A stretch of 64,000 bases of DNA, taken from NCBI GenBank assembly GCA_030949385.1, contig JAUZSP010000001.1:186001-250000 (forward strand). The letters are read 5' to 3'. The notes beneath the pieces were generated by a model. The model saw nothing but the letters and a program-made list of their open reading frames with translations. It searched no databases and was not told where the DNA came from. The stretch comes from Gammaproteobacteria bacterium (GTDB lineage Bacteria; Pseudomonadota; Gammaproteobacteria; JAUZRS01). Position 1 is the stretch's first letter. Each line of letters opens with the position of its first letter. The position numbers and the translations under genes were made by a program. Of the stretch, positions 1,512 to 53,984 are shown in pieces.

Positions 1512-3635
1512 ATGTCCAAAATCAAAACCATACTCTCGATTTCTCTACTGACACTGCTCATCATGAGCTGTGATTCATTTCTAAATAACACCCCACAAAA
1601 AACGACTGACATCAGTACAAACAACTCATTTCGACTCAACCGAAGCAACTCAAACGCAGAGTTGGAAACCTACTTGAAAACCGCTCTCAAACAGTCCGCC
1701 ATCTATACCGATGTCATTATGCTTACTGAAGCTCCCACACCGGCTCAATCCTCTACTGCCTCAACACCCGCTTCCGACACTGCTAATTCCAGCGGCACTA
1801 CTGAAAATGGCAACTACTCCAACACCAATGTCTGGGAAAAAGGCATTGATGAAGCGGATCGAATGAAGTTCGATGGCCAAAATCTCTACGTCATGCAAAC
1901 CAGTGACCTCTACTTTTACGACGCGCTGCCCGTCGCCACCCCAGCCGTAAGCAACAGCCTCTCCATCGCACCACCCAGCAACCCCATCAGCAATGAAACC
2001 GAACTGCGCATCCTCAGCCTTGACGGCGCACCCCACTACAACGCCACCGAAATCAAGCGCCTGACCTTCCCCTGGAGTACCAATAACAGCAGCCTCTATC
2101 TACGCACTCAACAAGAGGGGGCAAACAACACCTTACTGGCTGCCCTCGGTGGTGCGAGCGGCAACGATTGGCAGACCCCTTGGGGCTGGCAACAGGGCGA
2201 AACTCAGCTGCACATTTACAACGTCAACACCCCAGCCAGCCCCACATTGCGCTCCCACTACTCTTTTGACGGTTATCAAATTACCAGCCGGCGCATCGGC
2301 AGTCAGCTCTATTTGGCACTGCGCTACACCCCCTCGCTGCCCGATTTTATGCCCTACCCCTACACTCAAGACGATGAACTGAACAACCAACAGTTGATCC
2401 AAAATGCCACTCTCAACGACCTGCTGCCCAAGTGGCGATTGAACGGCAAAGAGCAAGGCACACTGGCCAACGCCGACAACTGCTACCTGATCCCCAGCAA
2501 CGCTGAAAACAGCGCACCGGCTCTCATCACCCTGCTGTCGATCAATCTGGATCAAGCCAATTCCGCGCCCCACGTCAGCTGCATCACCGGCAACAGCCAG
2601 ACCCTCTATCTCTCCAGCAACGCCCTCTACTTGGCCAACCCCGCGTACAACTACGCCGACAGCAGCAGCCACACCACGCTGCACAAATTCAGCCTCAACA
2701 ACGGCCAGCTCAATTACAGCGCCAGTGGCCAAATCAGCGGCACACTGGGCTGGGGTGACAAAGCCAGCTCACATCTAAGCGAGCGTAATGACCTCTTGCG
2801 CGCGGTGAGCAGCAGCTCAAACTGGAACGGCAACCGCACACAATATGACCACCGTCTCACAGTACTAAAAGAGCAAGCAGGCGAACTCATCCCCGTAGCC
2901 CAACTGCCCAACGACACTCAGCCACAAAAACTGGGCAAACCGGGTGAAGACATTTACGCGGTACGCTTTGCAGGCGATAAACTCTACTTAGTCACCTTCC
3001 AAAAAACCGACCCACTGTACGTCATCGACCTCAGCGACCCTCAAAACCCCAACATTGCAGGCACACTGGAAATCCCCGGCTACTCAGACTATCTGCACCC
3101 CATCAACGATCAATTGGTGCTCGGCATCGGCAAAGAAGCGCTGCTGGATACCAGTGGTAATTTTTCATGGTATCAAGGCATCAAACTGGGCCTGTTCGAC
3201 ATCAGCGACATCAGCAACCCCATCGAGAAAAAAAGCATCGCCATTGGCAAACGCGGCAGTGATGCCACCGTTCTCAACAGCCACCACGGCCTCGCCTACC
3301 TGCCCGCCAGCGCCACCACACCGGCACGACTGGCACTGCCGATCAATCTACACAACGCCACCACACCACCCAGCAACCCGTGGGAATTTTACCCTTGGCT
3401 GCACAGCGGACTCTATCTGTTTGATATTTACGACGGTCAGCAGAACAGCCCCATCGACCTACTACAGCAAGGGGTTTTAACCGCCAGAACGGCCACCAGC
3501 AGCAACAACCCTTGGGGAGAGAGCATCAACAACGACCGCGCTCTGTTGCTCAACGACGGGGTTTTTTACCTGCACGGCAATGAGGTTTGGTCAGCGGACT
3601 GGAACAGCCCAACGGTGAGTAATGGGCCGCAGTAA
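1512..3635 (+). CDS. secreted beta-propeller domain lipoprotein
   Basis: A 707-residue exported protein of the bacterial/archaeal secreted beta-propeller family (Pfam Beta_propel type). The N-terminus is a lipoprotein signal, LTLLIMSC, with the lipid-accepting Cys at residue 20. About 100 low-complexity Ser/Thr/Ala residues follow. The motif NVWEKGIDEADRMKFDGQNLY and repeated blade-like strands ending in LYL/LYLV, such as VRFAGDKLYLVTFQKTDPLYVIDLSDP, are typical of the family. I chose ATG 1512 over the in-frame upstream codon at 1455 because it has an AGGATAGGAG ribosome site and starts the signal peptide. The region before it is AT-rich with an inverted repeat (CATTATAT/ATATAATG at 1420-1440). 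The substrate or partner is unknown. The gene stands alone. Confidence 0.8.
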   Translation: MSKIKTILSISLLTLLIMSCDSFLNNTPQKTTDISTNNSFRLNRSNSNAELETYLKTALKQSAIYTDVIMLTEAPTPAQSSTASTPASDTANSSGTTENGNYSNTNVWEKGIDEADRMKFDGQNLYVMQTSDLYFYDALPVATPAVSNSLSIAPPSNPISNETELRILSLDGAPHYNATEIKRLTFPWSTNNSSLYLRTQQEGANNTLLAALGGASGNDWQTPWGWQQGETQLHIYNVNTPASPTLRSHYSFDGYQITSRRIGSQLYLALRYTPSLPDFMPYPYTQDDELNNQQLIQNATLNDLLPKWRLNGKEQGTLANADNCYLIPSNAENSAPALITLLSINLDQANSAPHVSCITGNSQTLYLSSNALYLANPAYNYADSSSHTTLHKFSLNNGQLNYSASGQISGTLGWGDKASSHLSERNDLLRAVSSSSNWNGNRTQYDHRLTVLKEQAGELIPVAQLPNDTQPQKLGKPGEDIYAVRFAGDKLYLVTFQKTDPLYVIDLSDPQNPNIAGTLEIPGYSDYLHPINDQLVLGIGKEALLDTSGNFSWYQGIKLGLFDISDISNPIEKKSIAIGKRGSDATVLNSHHGLAYLPASATTPARLALPINLHNATTPPSNPWEFYPWLHSGLYLFDIYDGQQNSPIDLLQQGVLTARTATSSNNPWGESINNDRALLLNDGVFYLHGNEVWSADWNSPTVSNGPQ

Positions 3636-3710
3636 ACAAGCAAATAAAATCTTGATAACGTTGTGCCTAATGAGATACTTTCAGCCTGAACTGAATCTGT
3701 AGGAACCATC

Positions 3711-4898
3711 ATGCACATCGAGTCGATACGCCTAAAAAACTTCAAGAGTTTTAAAGACGCACAGATGTTAGACATCCCTAAGTTTTGTGTTGTTGTCGGT
3801 GCCAACGGCAGTGGAAAATCAACTCTCTTTGGGGTTTTCGAGTTTCTAAAAGAGGCACTAACCAACAACGTTCACACAGCTCTGGTCAAAATAGGCGGCA
3901 ACCGAGGCTTTCGTGAAGTCATCAGTCGAGGTTCAAAGGGCAACATTGAAATTGAACTGAAATTTCGTGAATCAGACTCAGCTCCCTTAATCACCTACTT
4001 TCTCTCCATTGGCGAAAAAAACCATCGCCCCTTTGTCGCTCGTGAAATCTTAAAATACCGTCGAGGCTCCGGTGGGCAACCGTGGCACTTTTTGGATTTT
4101 TCCAATGGCCAAGGTGAAGCCGTTACCAACGAAGTGGAGCAAGTGACGGATGTTAAACAGTTAAAACGTGAACCTCAAACCCTTAAATCCGCAGAAATTT
4201 TAGCCGTCAAAGGGCTGGCACAATTCGCACGTTTTCCTGCGGTTGTAGCTCTGGGAAGCTTAATCGAAAATTGGCATATTTCCGATTTTCATATCAGCCG
4301 CGCCAGACCAGAACAAGAAGCAGGCTATGCAGAACACCTCTCCCGTGAAGGGGAAAATCTCTCCTTAGTCACAGAATACCTTCACTCACGCCACCCAAAA
4401 CGTTTTCAACAGATACTAAAAAAGTTAACTGAACGAATTCCGGGCATCACCTCTGTGGCCGCCAAAACCACCGAAGAGGGACGAGTGCTGTTGCGCTTCC
4501 AAGATGGCGCTTTTGAAGATCCTTTTTTAGCCCGCTACGTCTCCGACGGCACCATTAAGATGTTTGCCTATCTGGTTCTCCTTTACGACCCAGCGCCTCA
4601 CCCGCTGCTCTGCGTCGAAGAACCAGAAAACCAACTCTACCCAACCCTGCTGTGGGAATTAGCCGAAGAATTTCGCACCTACGCTGAACGAGGTGGGCAG
4701 GTATTCGTCTCCAGCCATTCACCGGATTTTTTAAACGCCGTGAACATTAACGAGGTCTACTGGCTGGTCAAAGAACAAGGCTGTACCGCCATCAAACGCG
4801 CTCGTGACGACCGACAAATAGCCGCATTTATCGCCGAAGGCGACCAGATGGGCTACCTTTGGTCCGAAGGCTTTTTCCAAGGAGCGGGAATACCATAA
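3711..4898 (+). CDS. AAA family ATPase (OLD/RloA-like), first gene of a possible defence pair
   Basis: A 395-residue ABC-type ATPase of the AAA_21/OLD group. Visible motifs: Walker A GANGSGKST (residues 30-38); an SDGTIKMFAYLVLL segment near 278 in the place of the ABC signature; Walker B LLCVEEPE near 298; and the H-loop VFVSSHSPDFL near 333. It has no TOPRIM domain of its own, but its stop overlaps the start of the DUF4276 gene (TAATG), so the two products very likely act together. ATPase plus separate TOPRIM-like partner resembles the arrangement of PARIS-type and other OLD-like anti-phage systems. The defence role is inference from architecture. An inverted repeat TTCAG-N6-CTGAA lies about 25-40 bases upstream (3680-3695). 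Confidence 0.85.
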   Translation: MHIESIRLKNFKSFKDAQMLDIPKFCVVVGANGSGKSTLFGVFEFLKEALTNNVHTALVKIGGNRGFREVISRGSKGNIEIELKFRESDSAPLITYFLSIGEKNHRPFVAREILKYRRGSGGQPWHFLDFSNGQGEAVTNEVEQVTDVKQLKREPQTLKSAEILAVKGLAQFARFPAVVALGSLIENWHISDFHISRARPEQEAGYAEHLSREGENLSLVTEYLHSRHPKRFQQILKKLTERIPGITSVAAKTTEEGRVLLRFQDGAFEDPFLARYVSDGTIKMFAYLVLLYDPAPHPLLCVEEPENQLYPTLLWELAEEFRTYAERGGQVFVSSHSPDFLNAVNINEVYWLVKEQGCTAIKRARDDRQIAAFIAEGDQMGYLWSEGFFQGAGIP

Positions 4899-5458
4899 TG
4901 AGAGAAATTGTCTTTTTTCTCGAAGAACCCTCCGCACGAGAAATGCTAAAGGGGGTACTGAAAAACACATTACCCAAGGAAATAACGCCCCGATTTGTGG
5001 TGTTCCAAGGCAAGCAAGACCTAGAAAAAAGGCTACCTATTCGCTTGAGAGCATGGCAACAATCCAATACTTTGTTTGTGGTCATAAGAGACCAAGACAG
5101 CGGCAACTGCATCAACATAAAACAAGCTCTAAAACAAAAATGCAGTGAGGCCGGTCAGCCAAACACCTTAATCAGAATTGCTTGCCGAGAGTTAGAAAGT
5201 TTCTATCTAGGAGACCTTAAAGCCGTTGCACACGCCTTTAACCTAAAAAATCTAGCCAAACAGCAAAACAAATCAAAATTCAGAGATCCCGACCGCTTAG
5301 GAAACCCCGCTGAAGAATTGAAAAAAATGGTTCCCAACTATCAAAAAATATCAGGATCACGCGCCATCGCCCCCCTACTCAATATCACTGAAAACCGATC
5401 AAACAGCTTTAATGCACTTATCAGTGGTATTCAACGAATCATTACAGAAGAGCATTAA
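4898..5458 (+). CDS. DUF4276 family protein (TOPRIM-like), partner of the upstream ATPase
   Basis: 186 residues. The N-terminal strand ends in FFLEEPSA (Glu 9-10), a second strand carries VVIRDQDSGN (Asp 65 and Asp 67), and RELESFYLGD at 97-106 is the family signature. A conserved acid after strand 1 and a DxD after a later strand are what a metal-binding TOPRIM-like nuclease site would look like; nuclease activity is inferred, not shown. The start ATG overlaps the ATPase stop by one base, and its own stop is directly followed by the ATG of the topoisomerase-helicase gene, so all three may be one transcript. The function is likely linked to DNA or RNA processing, possibly defence. Confidence 0.8.
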   Translation: MREIVFFLEEPSAREMLKGVLKNTLPKEITPRFVVFQGKQDLEKRLPIRLRAWQQSNTLFVVIRDQDSGNCINIKQALKQKCSEAGQPNTLIRIACRELESFYLGDLKAVAHAFNLKNLAKQQNKSKFRDPDRLGNPAEELKKMVPNYQKISGSRAIAPLLNITENRSNSFNALISGIQRIITEEH

Positions 5459-8400
5459 ATGGCCACCATCGTCATCGCCGAAAAACCCTCCATGGCCAGA
5501 GACATCGCCAAGGTCTTGGGAGCCAATCAACGCGCCAACGGCCACCTGCACAGCAACGATTACATCGTCACTTGGGCGATTGGCCATCTGGTCACCCTCG
5601 CCCAACCCCACGAAATCAACCCCGCATGGAAATCATGGTCAAGTGAGCTGCTGCCCATGTTGCCCCAACAATGGACGCTGAGCCTCAACCCAAAAACCGA
5701 AGATCAATTTCAAATCGTCGCCGCCCTGATGACCCAAAACGAAGCACGACACACTGATCTGCGCCACCGATGCCGGGCGCGAAGGCGAGCTGATTTTCCG
5801 TTACATCCACCAGCAAAGCGGCTGCACCAAGCCCTTTCAACGCCTCTGGATCTCCTCTCTCACCCCCGCCGCCATTCGCACCGGCTTTGAACAACTGCGC
5901 GCAGGCAGCGACTACGATCATTTAGCCGATGCCGCACGAGGGCGCTCGCAAGCCGATTGGTTGGTGGGCTTAAACCTCTCCCGCGCCTGCACCCTCGCCT
6001 TTGCCCGTCAAGGCGAGGTGCTCTCCGTCGGTCGAGTACAGACCCCCACGCTGGCCATTTTGGTGCAGCGCGAAGAGGAGATTCTCAACTTCAAAGTGGA
6101 GGAATTTCTGCTGCTCAAAGCGCGGTTTAACAGCGAGCAAAACGACCTCTATCGTGGCATCTGGTTCAAAGGCAAAACATCCAGCAGCAAAAACCAACGC
6201 CTGCCCATCGACGGCCAAAGAGCCGCCGCAATTCAACAGCGCGTGCAGCACCACAGCGCCCAAATCAACATCAGCCAACTGAAAATTGAACCGCGCTCAC
6301 AAGAACCACCACAACTCTACGACCTCACCGAACTGCAACGCCACGCCAACCGCCTCTACGGCTTCAGTGCCGACAAAACCCTCAAGCTGGCGCAAGAGCT
6401 GTACGAAAAAGAGAAACTCATCAGCTACCCGCGCACCGACAGCCGTTATCTCTCCAAAGAGGTAGCACACACTCTGCCCCCCATCGTCGAAAAAATCCGC
6501 AGCGCCTACAACGACCTAATCGCAGCAGAGACCGGTCAAAGCCCACTGGGCAAACGTTTTATCAACGACGCAAAAATCAACGACCATCACGCCATCATCC
6601 CCAACGGCAACCGCTCAAAATTGGCCAACAGCAGCGACGCAGGCAAACTGTACGACCTGCTCTGTCGCCGCTTGCTCGCCGCTTGGCAACCCAAACACCG
6701 CTACAGCCAAACCACCCTCATCACCACCGTGCAAAGTGAAGAGAACGGCCAACAGCAGCACGACACGTTCCACAGCAGCGGCCAACAGATTCTGCAACTG
6801 GGTTGGAAAAGCCTCGAAGTCCAGCACAAAAGCAACCAACAGACAACACCCTCACTGCCAGCACTCAAAGAAGGTCAAACGGTGCAACTGGCCGAGATCA
6901 AAACCGAAAAATCACAAACGCGCCCCCCGCCTCGGCTCAACGATGCCAGCCTCCTGACCGCAATGGAGAGCGCCGGACGCAGCCTAGACGAAAAAGAGCT
7001 GGCCGAAGCGATGCGAGAAAACGGCCTTGGCACCCCCGCCACCCGTGCCGAGATGATCGAAAACCTACTGCGACGCGGCTACCTTGAGCGCCAAGGCAAA
7101 CTGCTGCACCCCACCGAACGAGGGCTAAACCTAATCAAACAGGTGCCCAAAGCCCTGAAAACCCCACTGCTCACCGGCCAGTGGGAAGCCCAACTGCAAC
7201 AGATTCAACAGGGAAAAACAGACCTAACCACCTTTATGCAAGGCATCGAAACCTACGTCAAAGAAGCCGTAGATGAACTCTTTGCCCTACCCACCGCCAC
7301 AAAACGCACCCTCACCCCCATTGCAGAGCTGCCGCAACTGCTCAAATCCGCCTTTAAACTGGATGCCTTCCGCCCCCATCAAGAAGAGGTCTGCCAACAG
7401 ATCTGCGCCGGTCACGACCTGCTGTTGGTGATGCCCACCGGGGCAGGAAAATCCCTCTGTTATCAGTTGCCTGGCTTGGCACGCGCAGGCACCACCTTGG
7501 TCATCTCGCCTTTGATCGCTCTGATGGAAGATCAAGTGGGCAAACTACAAGAACTGGGGCTGAACGCCGAACGCATTCACTCCGGTCTCAGCCGCGAACA
7601 CGCCCGCCAGATCTGCCGCAACTACCTGCACGGCCTGCTGGATTACCTCTTTATCGCCCCCGAACGGCTCAAGGTGCCGGGCTTTGGTGACATGCTAGCG
7701 AAACGCAAACCGCAACTGATCGCCGTCGATGAAGCCCACTGCATCTCTCAGTGGGGGCACGATTTCCGTCCCGACTACCGACTGCTGCACCAGCACTTGC
7801 CTAAATTGGCACCGGCCCCCATCATTGCCCTCACCGCCACCGCCACTCCCGAAGTGCAAGCGGACATCTGCCAACAGTTGGGCAAGCCCGATGCACAGCG
7901 CTTTATTCACGGTTTTCGGCGGCACAACATCGCCATTCAGGTCAATGAACTGGCCGCCAATGAACGCAGCGAGGCGGTGGTGCAACTGCTCGACAACCCC
8001 AAATTACGCCCCGCCATCGTCTACGCCGCCTCACGCAAAGAGGCCAACGAATTGGCGGAAACCGTAGCGCAACACCACCCTTGCGCCGCCTACCATGCAG
8101 GCATGTTGGGCGAAAACCGCGATGCGGTGCAGCGCCAATTTCTGCAAGGGGAACTGGAGGTGATCGTCGCCACCGTCGCCTTCGGCATGGGCGTAGACAA
8201 AGCCGACATCCGCTGCGTCATTCACACCGCCCTGCCCGCCAGCGTGGAGAACTACTACCAAGAGATTGGCCGAGCTGGGCGTGACGGCCAAGAAAGCCAC
8301 GCCGTTTTGCTCTACGCCTACGCCGACCGCCGTACCCATGAGTTTTTCCTCAAGCGCGACTACCCACCCATTGAACAACTGGAGTCGATCCACGCCGCCC

Positions 8401-9317
8401 TCAATGAACATCTGCAAGAAAAACAGACCCTAGCGGCACAATTGCAGATCAAAGGCGATGAGTTTGAGCGCATGTTGGAAAAACTCTGGATTCACGGCGC
8501 AGCCCAGATCACCCCAGACGAACAGATCGTTCGCGGTGAAAGCCAACAGTGGCAACCGGCCTACCAACGCCAAAAAGCCCATCGGCAGCAGCAGTTAGAA
8601 AAAATCTTCCACTACGCACAGGGTCAAGAATGCCGCATGTTGGCGCTGATCCAACATTTTGGAGACGAGAGCGACAGCCAGCAACCCTGCGGCCTCTGTG
8701 ATGTGTGCCAACCGCAAAACAGCCTACTGACCGAAACCCTCTCGCCTGCCACGGTGCAACAGCAACACGTCATTGAGTGTCTGATTTTGGGTCTACGCCA
8801 ACGCAACGCCCAGAGCAGCGGCCAACTGCACAAACAGTTTGGCGAAGGTCTGACGCGGCGGGATTTTGAACGTCTGCTCACCTCCCTGCGCCGAGCCGAA
8901 TTAATCTCGCTTCAGGAGGACACGTTTGAAACAGAAGGCAAACAGATTCACTTTGTCCGCGTCCATCTCAGCGAACAGAGCCGCAACGGCAGAATCGACT
9001 ACGCGGCCATTCAACTGCCGCAGTTTGGCAAAACCAGCAAGAAAAAATCCAAACCTAGAAAAAAAGCCATTCCTATCGAGCCGCTATCGCCTCTCGCTCA
9101 ACAACGCTTGCAACGCCTCACCCAGTGGCGACTGGAGACAGCGCGGCGCGAAAAAGTCCCCGCCTTTCGGATTTTTTCCGACAAAACCCTACTGGAACTG
9201 GCCAGCGTGGCACCGGACAACCCCGAGGCGTTGTTGCAAATTGCAGGCATTGGAGCAAAAAAAGTAGAAAACTACAGTGCAGCGGTGTTTCGGGTCTTTA
9301 AAGAGACCGAGGTTTGA
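5459..9317 (+). CDS. topB: DNA topoisomerase III - RecQ helicase fusion, with a frameshift in the TOPRIM domain
   Basis: If one surplus base near 5747 is ignored, this reads as about 1285 residues joining two enzymes that act together in decatenation and dissolution of recombination intermediates. Order: TOPRIM domain (from VIAEKPSMARDIAKVLG, then ATDAGREGELIF after the shift); type IA topoisomerase core with catalytic Tyr about 323 in SYPRTDS; then RecQ with Walker A PTGAGKS (about 659), DEAH box VDEAHCISQWGHDFRP (about 757), motif VI QEIGRAGRDGQ, a Cys-containing zinc-binding region (about 1058-1084), and an HRDC-like C-terminus ending LLQIAGIGAKKVENY. The usual zinc-finger tail of TopB is absent. 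Frame 1 runs 5459-5890; the second frame is readable from 5748 and has its first ORF start codon at 5961. It follows the DUF4276 stop with no gap and overlaps vapC by 20 bases at the 3' end. Confidence 0.85.
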
Positions 9318-9696
9318 GAGGATCTAGTTTAGAAAAATACTCAACACCCAATAAACCTTCAAAATGACTATCCGACGTAATCAAGCGGGCTTGATGAAAA
9401 CGTGCACTGGCGTAAATGATCGCATCAGCAAAAGAAAGTGAATGTTCTGTGGATAAGTCAGCGGCCAACAAAGCAATAGAGGTTGTCAACGGTATAATCT
9501 GTGTCTGTTCCGTCAGTGCCACAGCCTGTAACGCCTTTTCACCGCCACTGTTACGACGCACCCATTTGTACAACTCGAACTGTACCGAGGTCGGTGTCAT
9601 CAAGGTTTCCACCCGATCAAAATAAGGTTCATAAGCCTCACTGAGCACACCATCCGTTAACCATTCAATCCAGCCACACGTATCAATCACCTTCAT
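9298..9696 (-). CDS. vapC: VapC-like PIN-domain ribonuclease toxin
   Basis: A 132-residue PIN-domain protein, the endoribonuclease half of a type II toxin-antitoxin pair. The start MKVIDTCGWIEWL supplies the first acidic residue (Asp 5). SVQFELYKW supplies the conserved Glu. LSFADAIIYASARFHQARLITSDSHF supplies the later Asp pair and the typical PIN ending. Its ATG overlaps the antitoxin stop by four bases (ATGA). The 3' end overlaps the convergent topB-recQ gene by 20 bases. The product is expected to cleave tRNA or rRNA when free of antitoxin; the target is unknown. Confidence 0.85.
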   Translation of the reverse strand: MKVIDTCGWIEWLTDGVLSEAYEPYFDRVETLMTPTSVQFELYKWVRRNSGGEKALQAVALTEQTQIIPLTTSIALLAADLSTEHSLSFADAIIYASARFHQARLITSDSHFEGLLGVEYFSKLDPLKPRSL

Positions 9697-9911
9697 ATCG
9701 GCTTTCTTTCCTGTCGGTCACGATAATCCATCGTCGCCTTAACACCAGAAAGCATACCGCGCATTTGCTGAATCGTTTGCACCGGAACCAATTCGATAAT
9801 ATGCCCACGCTCCAGCAAAACAAACTGCTGACCGGCCTGCAATTGCAGATTATCGCGCACCGCCTTAGGAATTGAGAGTTGAAACTTGCTAGACAGCTTT
9901 GCAGAGTTCAT
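9693..9911 (-). CDS. vapB: AbrB/MazE-fold antitoxin of the vapC pair
   Basis: A 72-residue swapped-hairpin DNA-binding protein (AbrB/SpoVT fold): MNSAKLSSKFQLSIPKAVRD is the classic strand-turn-strand with SIPK, followed by LQAGQQFVLLERGHIIELVPV. The C-terminal half (about 48-72) is likely the toxin-binding tail. I chose ATG 9911 over the longer frame start because the AbrB fold begins there and AAAGG lies just upstream. It is translationally coupled to vapC and probably represses its own promoter together with the toxin. Confidence 0.85.
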   Translation of the reverse strand: MNSAKLSSKFQLSIPKAVRDNLQLQAGQQFVLLERGHIIELVPVQTIQQMRGMLSGVKATMDYRDRQERKPI

Positions 9912-9986
9912 ATTTTTACCTTTTATTGATCTATAGAAATAGTGTAAAACAGTACGATAAAAAGTCAATTTCATCCGTTTAGCTCC

Positions 9987-10017
9987 GTAGGGTGCATTAA
10001 CCAAAGGGCAATGCACC
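9987..10017. repeat. GTAGGGT-type intergenic palindrome
   Basis: GTAGGGTGCATT at 9987-9998 pairs through GGTGCATT with AATGCACC at 10010-10017, 8 bp. It begins with the same GTAGG(G/T) edge as the palindromes near 31.8, 57.4 and 63.7 kb. It lies in the gap between vapB and the YcfJ-like gene. Confidence 0.5.
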
Positions 10018-10139
10018 AACAAACACAAGCAAGAGCAAATCCCCCTCATTCCCCCTTTTTTCAAAGTGGGAAGCCCAAGTCCTCACTCCATCGCAAGCCT
10101 CAAATAAAAGGCGCTGTCTCTCCTCATTTCCCTTCATCC

Positions 10140-10173
10140 GTTCAGCTCTCATTCAGACAAGCCGCTCTAAAAT
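10140..10173 (+). promoter_or_regulatory. direct-repeat box (GTTCAG-N5-ATTCAG) and -10 for the two-component operon
   Basis: GTTCAG (10140-10145), five bases, ATTCAG (10151-10156), eleven bases, then TAAAAT (10168-10173). Two hexamers with an 11-bp repeat distance, the second sitting where a -35 would be, is the geometry of PhoP/OmpR-family activator sites. The same arrangement occurs at 25674-25690. Autoregulation by the response regulator encoded at 10997 is inference. Confidence 0.5.
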
Positions 10174-10210
10174 GAACCTCATTAATCCAACCCAACTTTA
10201 GGACAGCAAC

Positions 10211-10747
10211 ATGAACCTCACCCTTCTACTAAAAAGTCTGCTTCTCAGCGCACTCATTTTCACCCCCTTCATCGCCGAGGCCAGTCAAAAACACCGCCAC
10301 CACCAACAAAGTTACACCAGCTTCGCCCGAGTCACTCACGTTGAACCCATTGTCCGTTACATCGAAGTAACTCGCCCCCACAAAGAGTGCTGGGATGAAG
10401 AAGATGAATACGACTCTCATGAAAATCGCCAACCACACTCCACTGGCCACCGTGCCCCGATCTTTAACGGTACCCTTGGCAACAGAATAATAAACCCTCA
10501 GAAAGAGAAAAAGAGCGACCTACGCCAACCCAAAACCAACCAACAGAGCCACAGCCGCAACACAAAAGAACATCGCGGCAGACACCACCAAGAGTGCCGC
10601 GTGGTGAACCGTCACCACCGAGAAAAACAGATCGACGGCTACCTCGTTCACTACCGCTACAAAGGCGAAAACTTTGAAACCCGCCTCCCTTATCATCCAG
10701 GTGATAGAATGAAAGTTCGTATCAGCGTCACCCCAATAAGATACTGA
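10211..10747 (+). CDS. YcfJ-like (glycine zipper 2TM family) protein lacking the glycine zipper
   Basis: 178 residues with a signal peptide (about 1-24, ending in AEA). The first part FARVTHVEPIVRYIEVTRPHKECW and the last part DGYLVHYRYKGENFETRLPYHPGDRMKVRISVTPI are the two ends of YcfJ-type envelope proteins. In the usual family these ends flank a Gly-rich double membrane helix. Here the middle is hydrophilic and rich in His, Lys, Arg, Asn and Gln; only GTLGNRII recalls the zipper. The product is therefore likely soluble in the periplasm. It opens the operon that includes PepSY, response regulator and sensor kinase, so a role in sensing or responding to envelope conditions is plausible but unproven. 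Confidence 0.65.
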   Translation: MNLTLLLKSLLLSALIFTPFIAEASQKHRHHQQSYTSFARVTHVEPIVRYIEVTRPHKECWDEEDEYDSHENRQPHSTGHRAPIFNGTLGNRIINPQKEKKSDLRQPKTNQQSHSRNTKEHRGRHHQECRVVNRHHREKQIDGYLVHYRYKGENFETRLPYHPGDRMKVRISVTPIRY

Positions 10748-10750
10748 ATC

Positions 10751-10993
10751 ATGAACAGAACACACATAACACCCCCTCTACTTTTGCTGCTTAGTCTGCT
10801 GCTCAGCAGTGGGGTGAACGCCAAACAGCTCAACCGAGAACAAGCCGCCCATCAAGCCCAGCATCAATACGGTGGCAAAGTGCTCTCAGTACGGCTGAAA
10901 AAACCGGCCAACAAAGCCCCCTTCTACGCCATCAAACTGCTCAAGCAGGGTCGGGTGCGCATCGTGCGGATCAAAAAACGACAACGGGACTAA
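10751..10993 (+). CDS. small periplasmic PepSY-domain protein
   Basis: 80 residues: signal peptide to about residue 24 (LLLSLLLSSGVNA) and then a single PepSY-like unit, LNREQAAHQAQHQYGGKVLSVRLKK...FYAIKLLKQGRVRIVRIKKRQRD. Such small PepSY proteins are often encoded just before PhoPQ/QseBC-type systems, as here: three bases after the YcfJ-like gene and three before the response regulator. The strongly basic C-terminus is notable. It may modulate the sensor kinase periplasmic domain; this is inference from context. Confidence 0.75.
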   Translation: MNRTHITPPLLLLLSLLLSSGVNAKQLNREQAAHQAQHQYGGKVLSVRLKKPANKAPFYAIKLLKQGRVRIVRIKKRQRD

Positions 10994-10996
10994 ATC

Positions 10997-11680
10997 ATGC
11001 GCGTTCTCATCGTCGAAGACGACACCACCCTCGCCAGCCAACTGCAAAGCCAACTATCACAACGTGGATTTGTCACCGATCTGGCTCACGATGGCGAAGA
11101 GGGGCTGTTTTATGCCCTCGAATCGCCGCTGGACATCGCCATCGTTGACCTCGGCCTACCGAAACTCTCCGGCATCGAACTGATCAAGACCGCCCGCGCC
11201 AAAGGCAAAAACTACCCCATCTTGATCCTCACCGCCCGCGACCGCTGGCAAGACAAAGTGGAAGGCCTGGAAGCGGGCGGCGACGACTACCTCGCCAAAC
11301 CCTTTCACCCAGAGGAGCTGCTGGCACGGCTCAACGCCCTGCTGCGCCGTGCCGGGCGCTGGACACAAGCTCAACTCCACTGCGGGCCTGTGACCCTGGA
11401 CACCGGCAGCCAGCAGGTTTTCCTCCACCAGCAACCACTGGAGCTGACCAGCTACGAATTCAAACTGCTGGAATATTTGATGCTGCACGCCGGAGAAACC
11501 CTCTCCAAAAGCCGCCTCACAGAACACCTCTACGACGACGAACGCGACAGCAACGTCATCGAAGTCTTTATTCGACGTTTGCGGAAAAAACTCGACCCTG
11601 ATGGCAACCTGAACCCCATTGAAACCCAACGCGGACAAGGCTACCGTTTCAGCCTAGCGCGCCACAACGATGCCCCTTAA
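10997..11680 (+). CDS. OmpR/PhoP-family response regulator
   Basis: 227 residues. The receiver domain has acidic pocket EDD (7-9), phospho-acceptor Asp 51 in AIVDLGLP, Thr in ILTARDRW and Lys in DDYLAKPF. The C-terminal winged helix ends in DSNVIEVFIRRLRKKLDP and ETQRGQGYRF, typical of PhoP/QseB/PmrA-type regulators. It overlaps the sensor kinase gene by 11 bases, so the two are coupled. It is the best candidate to bind the repeated hexamer boxes at 10140 and 25674. Confidence 0.92.
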   Translation: MRVLIVEDDTTLASQLQSQLSQRGFVTDLAHDGEEGLFYALESPLDIAIVDLGLPKLSGIELIKTARAKGKNYPILILTARDRWQDKVEGLEAGGDDYLAKPFHPEELLARLNALLRRAGRWTQAQLHCGPVTLDTGSQQVFLHQQPLELTSYEFKLLEYLMLHAGETLSKSRLTEHLYDDERDSNVIEVFIRRLRKKLDPDGNLNPIETQRGQGYRFSLARHNDAP

Positions 11681-52468: not shown

Positions 52469-53984
52469 TTATTCGCTCTGAGCAATAGCAACGTCTTGAG
52501 AAATATTACTGCTTGCACCCGATTTAACTTTGTCCGCACGCAACAGCTCCAGCTGTTGAAGATACTCAGGGCTGACATCACCGGTGACGTATTCACCGGT
52601 AAAACAGCAGGTTTCAAACTGCTTGAGGTGATCACTCGCAGAACTGACCGATTCAATCAAATCTTCTAAATCCTGATAAATCAGCCAATCAGCGCCAATC
52701 ACCTCACAAATCTCACTCACGGTTCGATCATGGGCAATCAACTCATCTACCGCAGGCATATCAATGCCGTACACATTTGGGTAACGTACCGGTGGCGCTG
52801 CTGACGCCATATAGACTTTATTCGCCCCTGCTTGACGCGCCATCTGCACAATCTGACCCGAGGTGGTACCACGCACAATGGAATCGTCCACCAACAGCAC
52901 ATTTTTGCCTTCAAATTCCGAATCAATCGGATTCAGTTTTTGGCGCACGGATTTTTTTGCGTAATTTTTGCCCAGGCATAATAAAGGTGCGACCGATGTA
53001 ACGGTTTTTAATAAACCCCTCACGGTATTTCACCCCCAAATGGTAAGCCAATTCCATTGCCGAAGTGCGACTGGTATCGGGGATTGGGATCACCACATCA
53101 ATGTCATGATCCTTAAACTCACGCAGAATTTTCGCTGCCAAGGTTTTGCCCATATTCAAGCGCGACTGATAAACCGAAGTACCGTCCATTACCGAATCGG
53201 GACGGGAAAAATAGACGTACTCAAAAATACAAGGGGCGTATTGAGGATTTTTAGCACACTGACGAGTATGCATGGTGCCGTTCTCTTCAATGTAAACCGC
53301 TTCACCTGGTTCCACATCACGCACCACCTCAAAACCCAACGCTCGAATCGCCACACTTTCCGAAGCAATCATATACTCGGTACCGGCCATGTCTTCGCGT
53401 TTACCGATCACCATGAGCCGAATGCCGAAGGGATCACGAAACCCCAAAATGCCATGCCCCACGATCATGGAAATCACCGCATAACCGCCTTTGCAACGCA
53501 AATGCACCGCCTCCACCGCGCCAAAAATAGCCTCGGCAGAGAGTTGTGGCGATTTCACCCGACTGTGTAATTCATGGGCAAACACATTCAACAGCACCTC
53601 AGAATCAGAGTTGGTATTGATATGGCGTAGGTCGTCTTCAAACAACTGCTTTTTCAGCTCTTCGGCGTTGGTCAGATTGCCGTTGTGTCCCATGGCAATG
53701 CCATAAGGTGAATTAACGTAAAACGGTTGCGCCTCAGCGGGAGAGGAGTTGCCAGCGGTGGGGTAACGCACATGGGCAATGCCCATATTGCCCTTTAAAC
53801 GCAGCATGTGTTTGCTGCGAAATACATCACTCACCAACCCCAACGCTTTACGCATATAGACTCGGCCTTCAAAACAGGTGGCGATACCCGCCGCATCCTG
53901 CCCTCGGTGTTGCAACAACAGCAAACCGTCATACAAGGTCTTGTTTACGGGGCCTTGCCCGACGATACCGAAGATTCCGCACAT
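52469..53984 (-). CDS. purF: amidophosphoribosyltransferase, split by a one-base homopolymer frameshift
   Basis: First step of purine synthesis: PRPP plus glutamine gives phosphoribosylamine. The N-terminal glutaminase domain starts MCGIFGIVG with catalytic Cys 2 and has [14 protein letters not shown]. The transferase domain has the PRPP motif [15 protein letters not shown] and [14 protein letters not shown]. Frame 1 is open from 53984 to 52923; frame 2, entered at the A7 run (plus-strand T7, 52952-52958), carries the rest. With six A the text reads [16 protein letters not shown] and gives 504 residues, like E. coli (505). As purF is central, a sequence error or slippage is more likely than real loss. 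It follows cvpA as usual. Confidence 0.93.

Follow-up and report, generated by a model that had tools for sequence, protein, structure and literature searches.

The two genes at positions 3711 to 5458 of the window (the whole stretch of DNA analysed, 64,000 nucleotides from a gammaproteobacterium) are an additional member of HEC-01, an already catalogued candidate defence family, and not a new system; they probably constitute an anti-phage module with the working of a split OLD nuclease. The ATPase gene (3711..4898, forward strand) encodes an OLD/RecF/Rad50-like ABC ATPase of 395 residues that lacks a TOPRIM domain, and the DUF4276 gene (4898..5458, forward strand) encodes, from its ATG, a protein of 186 residues predicted to be a stand-alone OLD-type TOPRIM nuclease with a helical tail. 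A sequence-only reading of this DNA had singled out an OLD-type ATPase overlapping a small protein as a two-gene defence candidate. The coordinates and the overlap, a single base shared by the two open reading frames (TAATG), are confirmed, and the candidate itself is borne out by the HEC-01 identity of the pair and by the small protein being a predicted TOPRIM with conserved acids. The evidence observed comprises the gene pairing, the ATPase motifs, the HEC-01 identity, the conserved acids and the predicted TOPRIM fold, together with presence or absence of the pair between close genomes and the homologues found in defence operons and prophages.

Membership of the pair in HEC-01

The PADLOC search which that reading had proposed assigns both proteins to HEC-01. 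The best match of the ATPase is model PDLC04144 (3e-205, 680 bits, residues 1-392 of 395) and that of the DUF4276 protein is PDLC04143 (1e-83, 278 bits); all 14 PADLOC matches of the latter are HEC-01 models. The gene order is also that of HEC-01, with the DUF4276 partner adjoining the ATPase. The names HEC-01A and HEC-01B are swapped in PADLOC-DB between the set PDLC04143/PDLC04144 and the set PDLC04174-04206.

HEC stands for Hma-embedded candidate, and HEC-01 is in PADLOC-DB (Payne et al., bioRxiv 2024.01.29.577857, as cited in PMC12111858). The closest named relative found is a pair in Aeromonas caviae whose DUF4276 protein is 61-63% identical and whose scores on PDLC04144/PDLC04143 are 684 and 274 bits; it is flanked by HmaB (1773 bits) and HmaC (1563 bits), and according to PMC12111858 this hmaB-pair-hmaC arrangement is the one that gives the HEC systems their name. 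The window pair differs in its location, being placed between a beta-propeller gene on the left and a Topo III-RecQ gene on the right, and within the 64-kb window it is not embedded in an Hma operon. We regard Hma embedding as the context of discovery and do not take it as required, the PADLOC models scoring the two proteins. HEC-04, an ATPase-TOPRIM fusion, is described as active against T4 and T5 (PMC12111858). The window genome also holds a second, diverged HEC-01 pair (G000:C1:339693-341608; positions 9679-11618 of locus L036), beside a gene resembling an arsenite methyltransferase.

ATPase, predicted TOPRIM and proposed mechanism

The ATPase matches Pfam AAA_21 (1.8e-29) and AAA_15 (4e-19) above their curated cut-offs. 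It carries a Walker A motif (GANGSGKST, residues 30-38), a signature (SDGT, residues 278-281), a Walker B/D-loop (EEPEN, residues 303-307) and an H-switch (H336), and the key residues of Walker A, signature, Walker B and H-switch are 96-100% conserved across 54 homologues. In the structural model (pLDDT 89, pTM 0.88) the protein is a bare ATPase head that terminates shortly past the H-switch and resembles retron PtuA, Septu PtuA, Rad50 and SMC heads. MAD3 of the MADS system is a homologous ATPase as judged by its NCBIfam model (112.7 bits), but this score is far under the curated cut-off of 420 and there is no methylase or other MADS gene nearby.

The small protein matches DUF4276 (PF14103) at 1e-13, above the curated cut-off; sequence searches of the PDB with it gave nothing significant, and a search of a library of papers gave none that names DUF4276. 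Its AlphaFold2 model, built from an alignment of ten sequences, is confident (pLDDT 91.2, pTM 0.86) and has strands at residues 2-8, 29-35, 58-65 and 91-95 with helices in between, such that E9 falls just past strand 1 and D65/D67 at the end of strand 3. Compared by Foldseek with 350,542 PDB chains, the model had a single match at E<=0.001, namely 6nk8 (2.7e-4, probability 1.00, TM 0.53), which covers the C-terminal part, TOPRIM included, of a class 2 OLD protein from Burkholderia. A profile-profile alignment with OLD TOPRIMs likewise brings the Glu and DxD motifs into register (P 3.6e-4), with a probability of only 37%.

In the Burkholderia OLD protein, E400, D455 and D457 bind metal A, and E404, T506 and E508 bind metal B with K562 assisting (PMC7049728). 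The DUF4276 residues E9, D65/D67, E98/E100 and K150 fit the order of OLD E400, D455/D457, T506/E508 and K562, a mapping made by order and spacing and not by superposition. The acids that the sequence-only reading had called TOPRIM-like (E9, E10, D65 and D67) are at these positions; among 52 homologues E9, D65, D67 and E100 are invariant (52/52), E98 is kept in 51, E10 in 46 and K150 in 45. One position counts against the assignment: the equivalent of OLD E404, position 13 in the DUF4276 protein, is not conserved and is mostly A, M or G. Because the model matches an OLD TOPRIM and the mapped acids and lysine are conserved, the view of DUF4276 as a stand-alone OLD-type TOPRIM, and hence a predicted nuclease, is supported. 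DUF4276 would thereby gain a concrete, testable identity, with catalytic residues to mutate.

OLD nucleases of classes 1-3 comprise P2 Old, GajA of Gabija and retron Eco8. They share with the window pair a related ATPase and a TOPRIM with matching Glu, DxD, distal Glu and Lys, whereas in the window ATPase and TOPRIM are on separate genes and there is no GajB helicase, reverse transcriptase or E404 equivalent. The features of a split OLD nuclease that are present are the ABC ATPase motifs, the TOPRIM fold of the model and the metal A ligands E and DxD; of the metal B/K562 set, mapped by order and spacing, E98/E100 and K150 are conserved and the E404 equivalent is not.

PARIS, a proposed class 4 OLD, is activated by an Ocr-like trigger and cleaves tRNA. 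The sequence-only reading had called the pair PARIS-like, which holds for the architecture, an ABC ATPase and a TOPRIM on two adjacent genes (AriA and AriB in PARIS), but not for membership: we found neither an AriB PADLOC match nor a DUF4435 Pfam match for the pair, and the small protein is a DUF4276 protein that, by structure, matches an OLD TOPRIM best. The ATPase does match the AriA model PDLC02980 (2e-28), with far higher scores on HEC-01 models (680 and 425 bits). PARIS membership was rejected for want of AriB, DUF4276 being there instead.

In PARIS, AriA gates AriB, an ATPase sensor controlling a TOPRIM effector (PMC12409363), and by analogy a working of this kind would be the best mechanism for the HEC-01 pair. 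The ATPase would dimerise around ATP and serve as both sensor and gate, forming a complex in which the DUF4276 TOPRIM nuclease is kept silent; once a phage signal altered the ATPase, the TOPRIM would cut nucleic acid by two-metal catalysis, whether phage DNA or, as in PARIS, host tRNA, and so bring the infection or the cell to a stop. Of this mechanism we infer the complex, the trigger, the substrate and the outcome, protection included.

The probable acquisition site beside the Topo III-RecQ gene

The sequence-only reading had the pair abutting a Topo III-RecQ gene without a gap, and so it does: directly after the DUF4276 stop codon (TAA, 5456-5458) the Topo III-RecQ frame opens with an ATG at 5459, that gene being a single-gene fusion on the same strand (5459-9317). 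It had further taken the pair to be tied to this helicase-topoisomerase, an idea that did not survive comparison with other genomes. In a genome of the same genus (G001) the beta-propeller and Topo III-RecQ genes are adjacent on one contig, 66 bp apart and without the pair. Window 5459-9313 is 97% identical to that genome, while window 3636-5458 has no counterpart in it and the match restarts exactly at the Topo III start; this variable segment, in place of which G001 has those 66 bp, consists of the pair and a leader of 75 bp (3636..3710, forward strand) belonging to the putatively acquired sequence. The fusion is found in only 4 of 369 genomes of the class, and in none of the three others does the pair lie beside it. 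The three-gene order, whose conservation had been proposed as a check, is thus not kept in the other fusion-bearing genomes. Two of these, G198 and G068, encode fusions of 1263-1269 residues that are about 55% identical, and G198 carries a HEC-01 pair on another contig.

Given this empty site and the pairless other fusions, the zero gap marks a site of horizontal acquisition, next to a DNA-repair gene to which the pair is unrelated, and not a conserved unit. Loss of the pair from G001 is the less likely alternative to its acquisition here. The G+C content of the pair region is about 45-50% against about 55-60% in the flanks, and no repeats or target-site duplication of the transposon type were found at the junctions of the segment. 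The leader holds a single weak sigma-70-like match (3652-3679), no better than chance, and Rfam had no matches across window 3400-10300, with no RNA element seen.

Accordingly, a functional unit of three genes, in which the pair would regulate or assist DNA repair by the Topo III-RecQ fusion, was rejected. The shared strand and the start codon directly after the DUF4276 stop speak for such a unit, but G001 has the fusion intact (1285 residues) without the pair, homologues of the pair adjoin unrelated genes, and the fusion is frameshifted in the window assembly; this reading is largely refuted and we give it almost no credence. Relative to the G001 copy, one extra base near 5743 (AACGAAGC in the window, AACGAGC in G001) disrupts this frame. 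A second broken gene, purF (window 52469-53984), is split by a frameshift at about 52.9-53.0 kb, a sign that the assembly of this genome may contain small errors. The fusion also scores 1187 bits on the DpdF model PDLC02865 owing to its RecQ domain, a match that would mislabel the gene.

A vapBC-like pair with PIN and MazE/AbrB domains of Pfam type follows on the opposite strand (9298-10064), as the sequence-only reading had noted; it is missing from G001. A 16-nt repeat, TTCATCCGTTYAGCTC, stands near it at 9970 and 10133. The proposal that 3.7-10 kb forms a small defence island was abandoned: at 1e-20 none of the 44 other window proteins, vapBC among them, has a PADLOC match, and there is therefore no island here. 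The DpdF match reflects the RecQ domain and that of vapBC is marginal (0.05). The empty site in G001 implies that such pairs can lie beyond defence islands, out of reach of searches based on islands.

Distribution and contexts of homologues

Of the 50 homologous loci listed, 49 have the ATPase gene directly upstream of DUF4276, so that the pairing is not due to chance. One observation counts against our reading: on an IMG/VR phage contig (L048, 6001-7191) an ATPase 67% identical to that of the window occurs without DUF4276. That gene is preceded by another ATPase gene with a four-base overlap.

Contexts were read from open reading frames, and many neighbour gene names are our own reading of sequence; nuoC, nuoD, AceK, HSP70 and R-M domains were confirmed by Pfam tallies. 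The pair lies within type I R-M operons (L037, L057, L112, L115, L135, L149), type III R-M operons (L107, L111, L116) and Hma (L054, the Aeromonas locus, with an Hma-ATPase-like remnant at L127). It is also found in phages and plasmids, for example near a phosphorothioation-associated gene and toxin-antitoxin genes on Synechocystis pSYSM (L055), and phage integrases adjoin it at L050 and L051. Most homologues, however, adjoin housekeeping genes, which counts against a defence role, and some sit tightly inside housekeeping operons: nuoC/nuoD (L033), thrC/cysM (L108), hscA/fdx (L133), aceK/hrpA (L131) and glnS/selO (L035). Enrichment of homologues near defence genes, another check that had been proposed, is modest: proteins of nearest neighbours matched 116 PADLOC families at 1e-30 versus 34 for control regions, and by hand count 14 of 49 loci are defence-adjacent versus 3 of 40 controls (Fisher p=0.015). 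Some defence genes were present in the control regions as well, and the count for these regions is approximate; were it higher, p would weaken, and we treat the enrichment as suggestive only.

These contexts bear on three other readings. A housekeeping ATPase/nuclease pair for DNA repair, RecF/Rad50-like and without a defence role, would agree with the Rad50/SMC-like fold of the ATPase and with the many housekeeping neighbourhoods, but the pair occurs in only 19 of 369 class and 34 of 398 phylum genomes, is absent from G001, has lower G+C than its flanks and turns up in phages and plasmids; we consider this reading very unlikely. A selfish addiction module of toxin-antitoxin type, in which the ATPase restrains a DUF4276 toxin that serves mainly its own persistence, would suit a compact two-gene pair of scattered presence with copies near phage integrases and in plasmids, and the Pfam description of AAA_21 mentions the AbiEii toxin. 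That the pair recurs within R-M and Hma operons points instead to defence, and we hold this reading to be unlikely, though the two overlap in that systems of the PARIS type, too, become toxic only upon triggering.

Alternatively, HEC-01 pairs might be compact cassettes that recurrently settle at junctions of housekeeping operons (before topB-recQ here; nuoC/nuoD, thrC/cysM, hscA/fdx and aceK/hrpA elsewhere), with their translation coupled to that of the core gene which follows. We think this quite improbable; if true, expression would depend on core metabolism instead of on defence islands, as might triggering when a phage shuts down host transcription.

Two loci hold further pairs next to a HEC-01 pair. 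At L035 (6257-9600) a glnS-like and a selO-like gene enclose two different HEC-01 pairs in tandem. At L107 (426-2090) a different ATPase and a small EG..D-type protein, the latter without a PADLOC match at 1e-10, lie directly upstream of the HEC-01 pair, and both pairs stand before the res gene of the type III R-M system.
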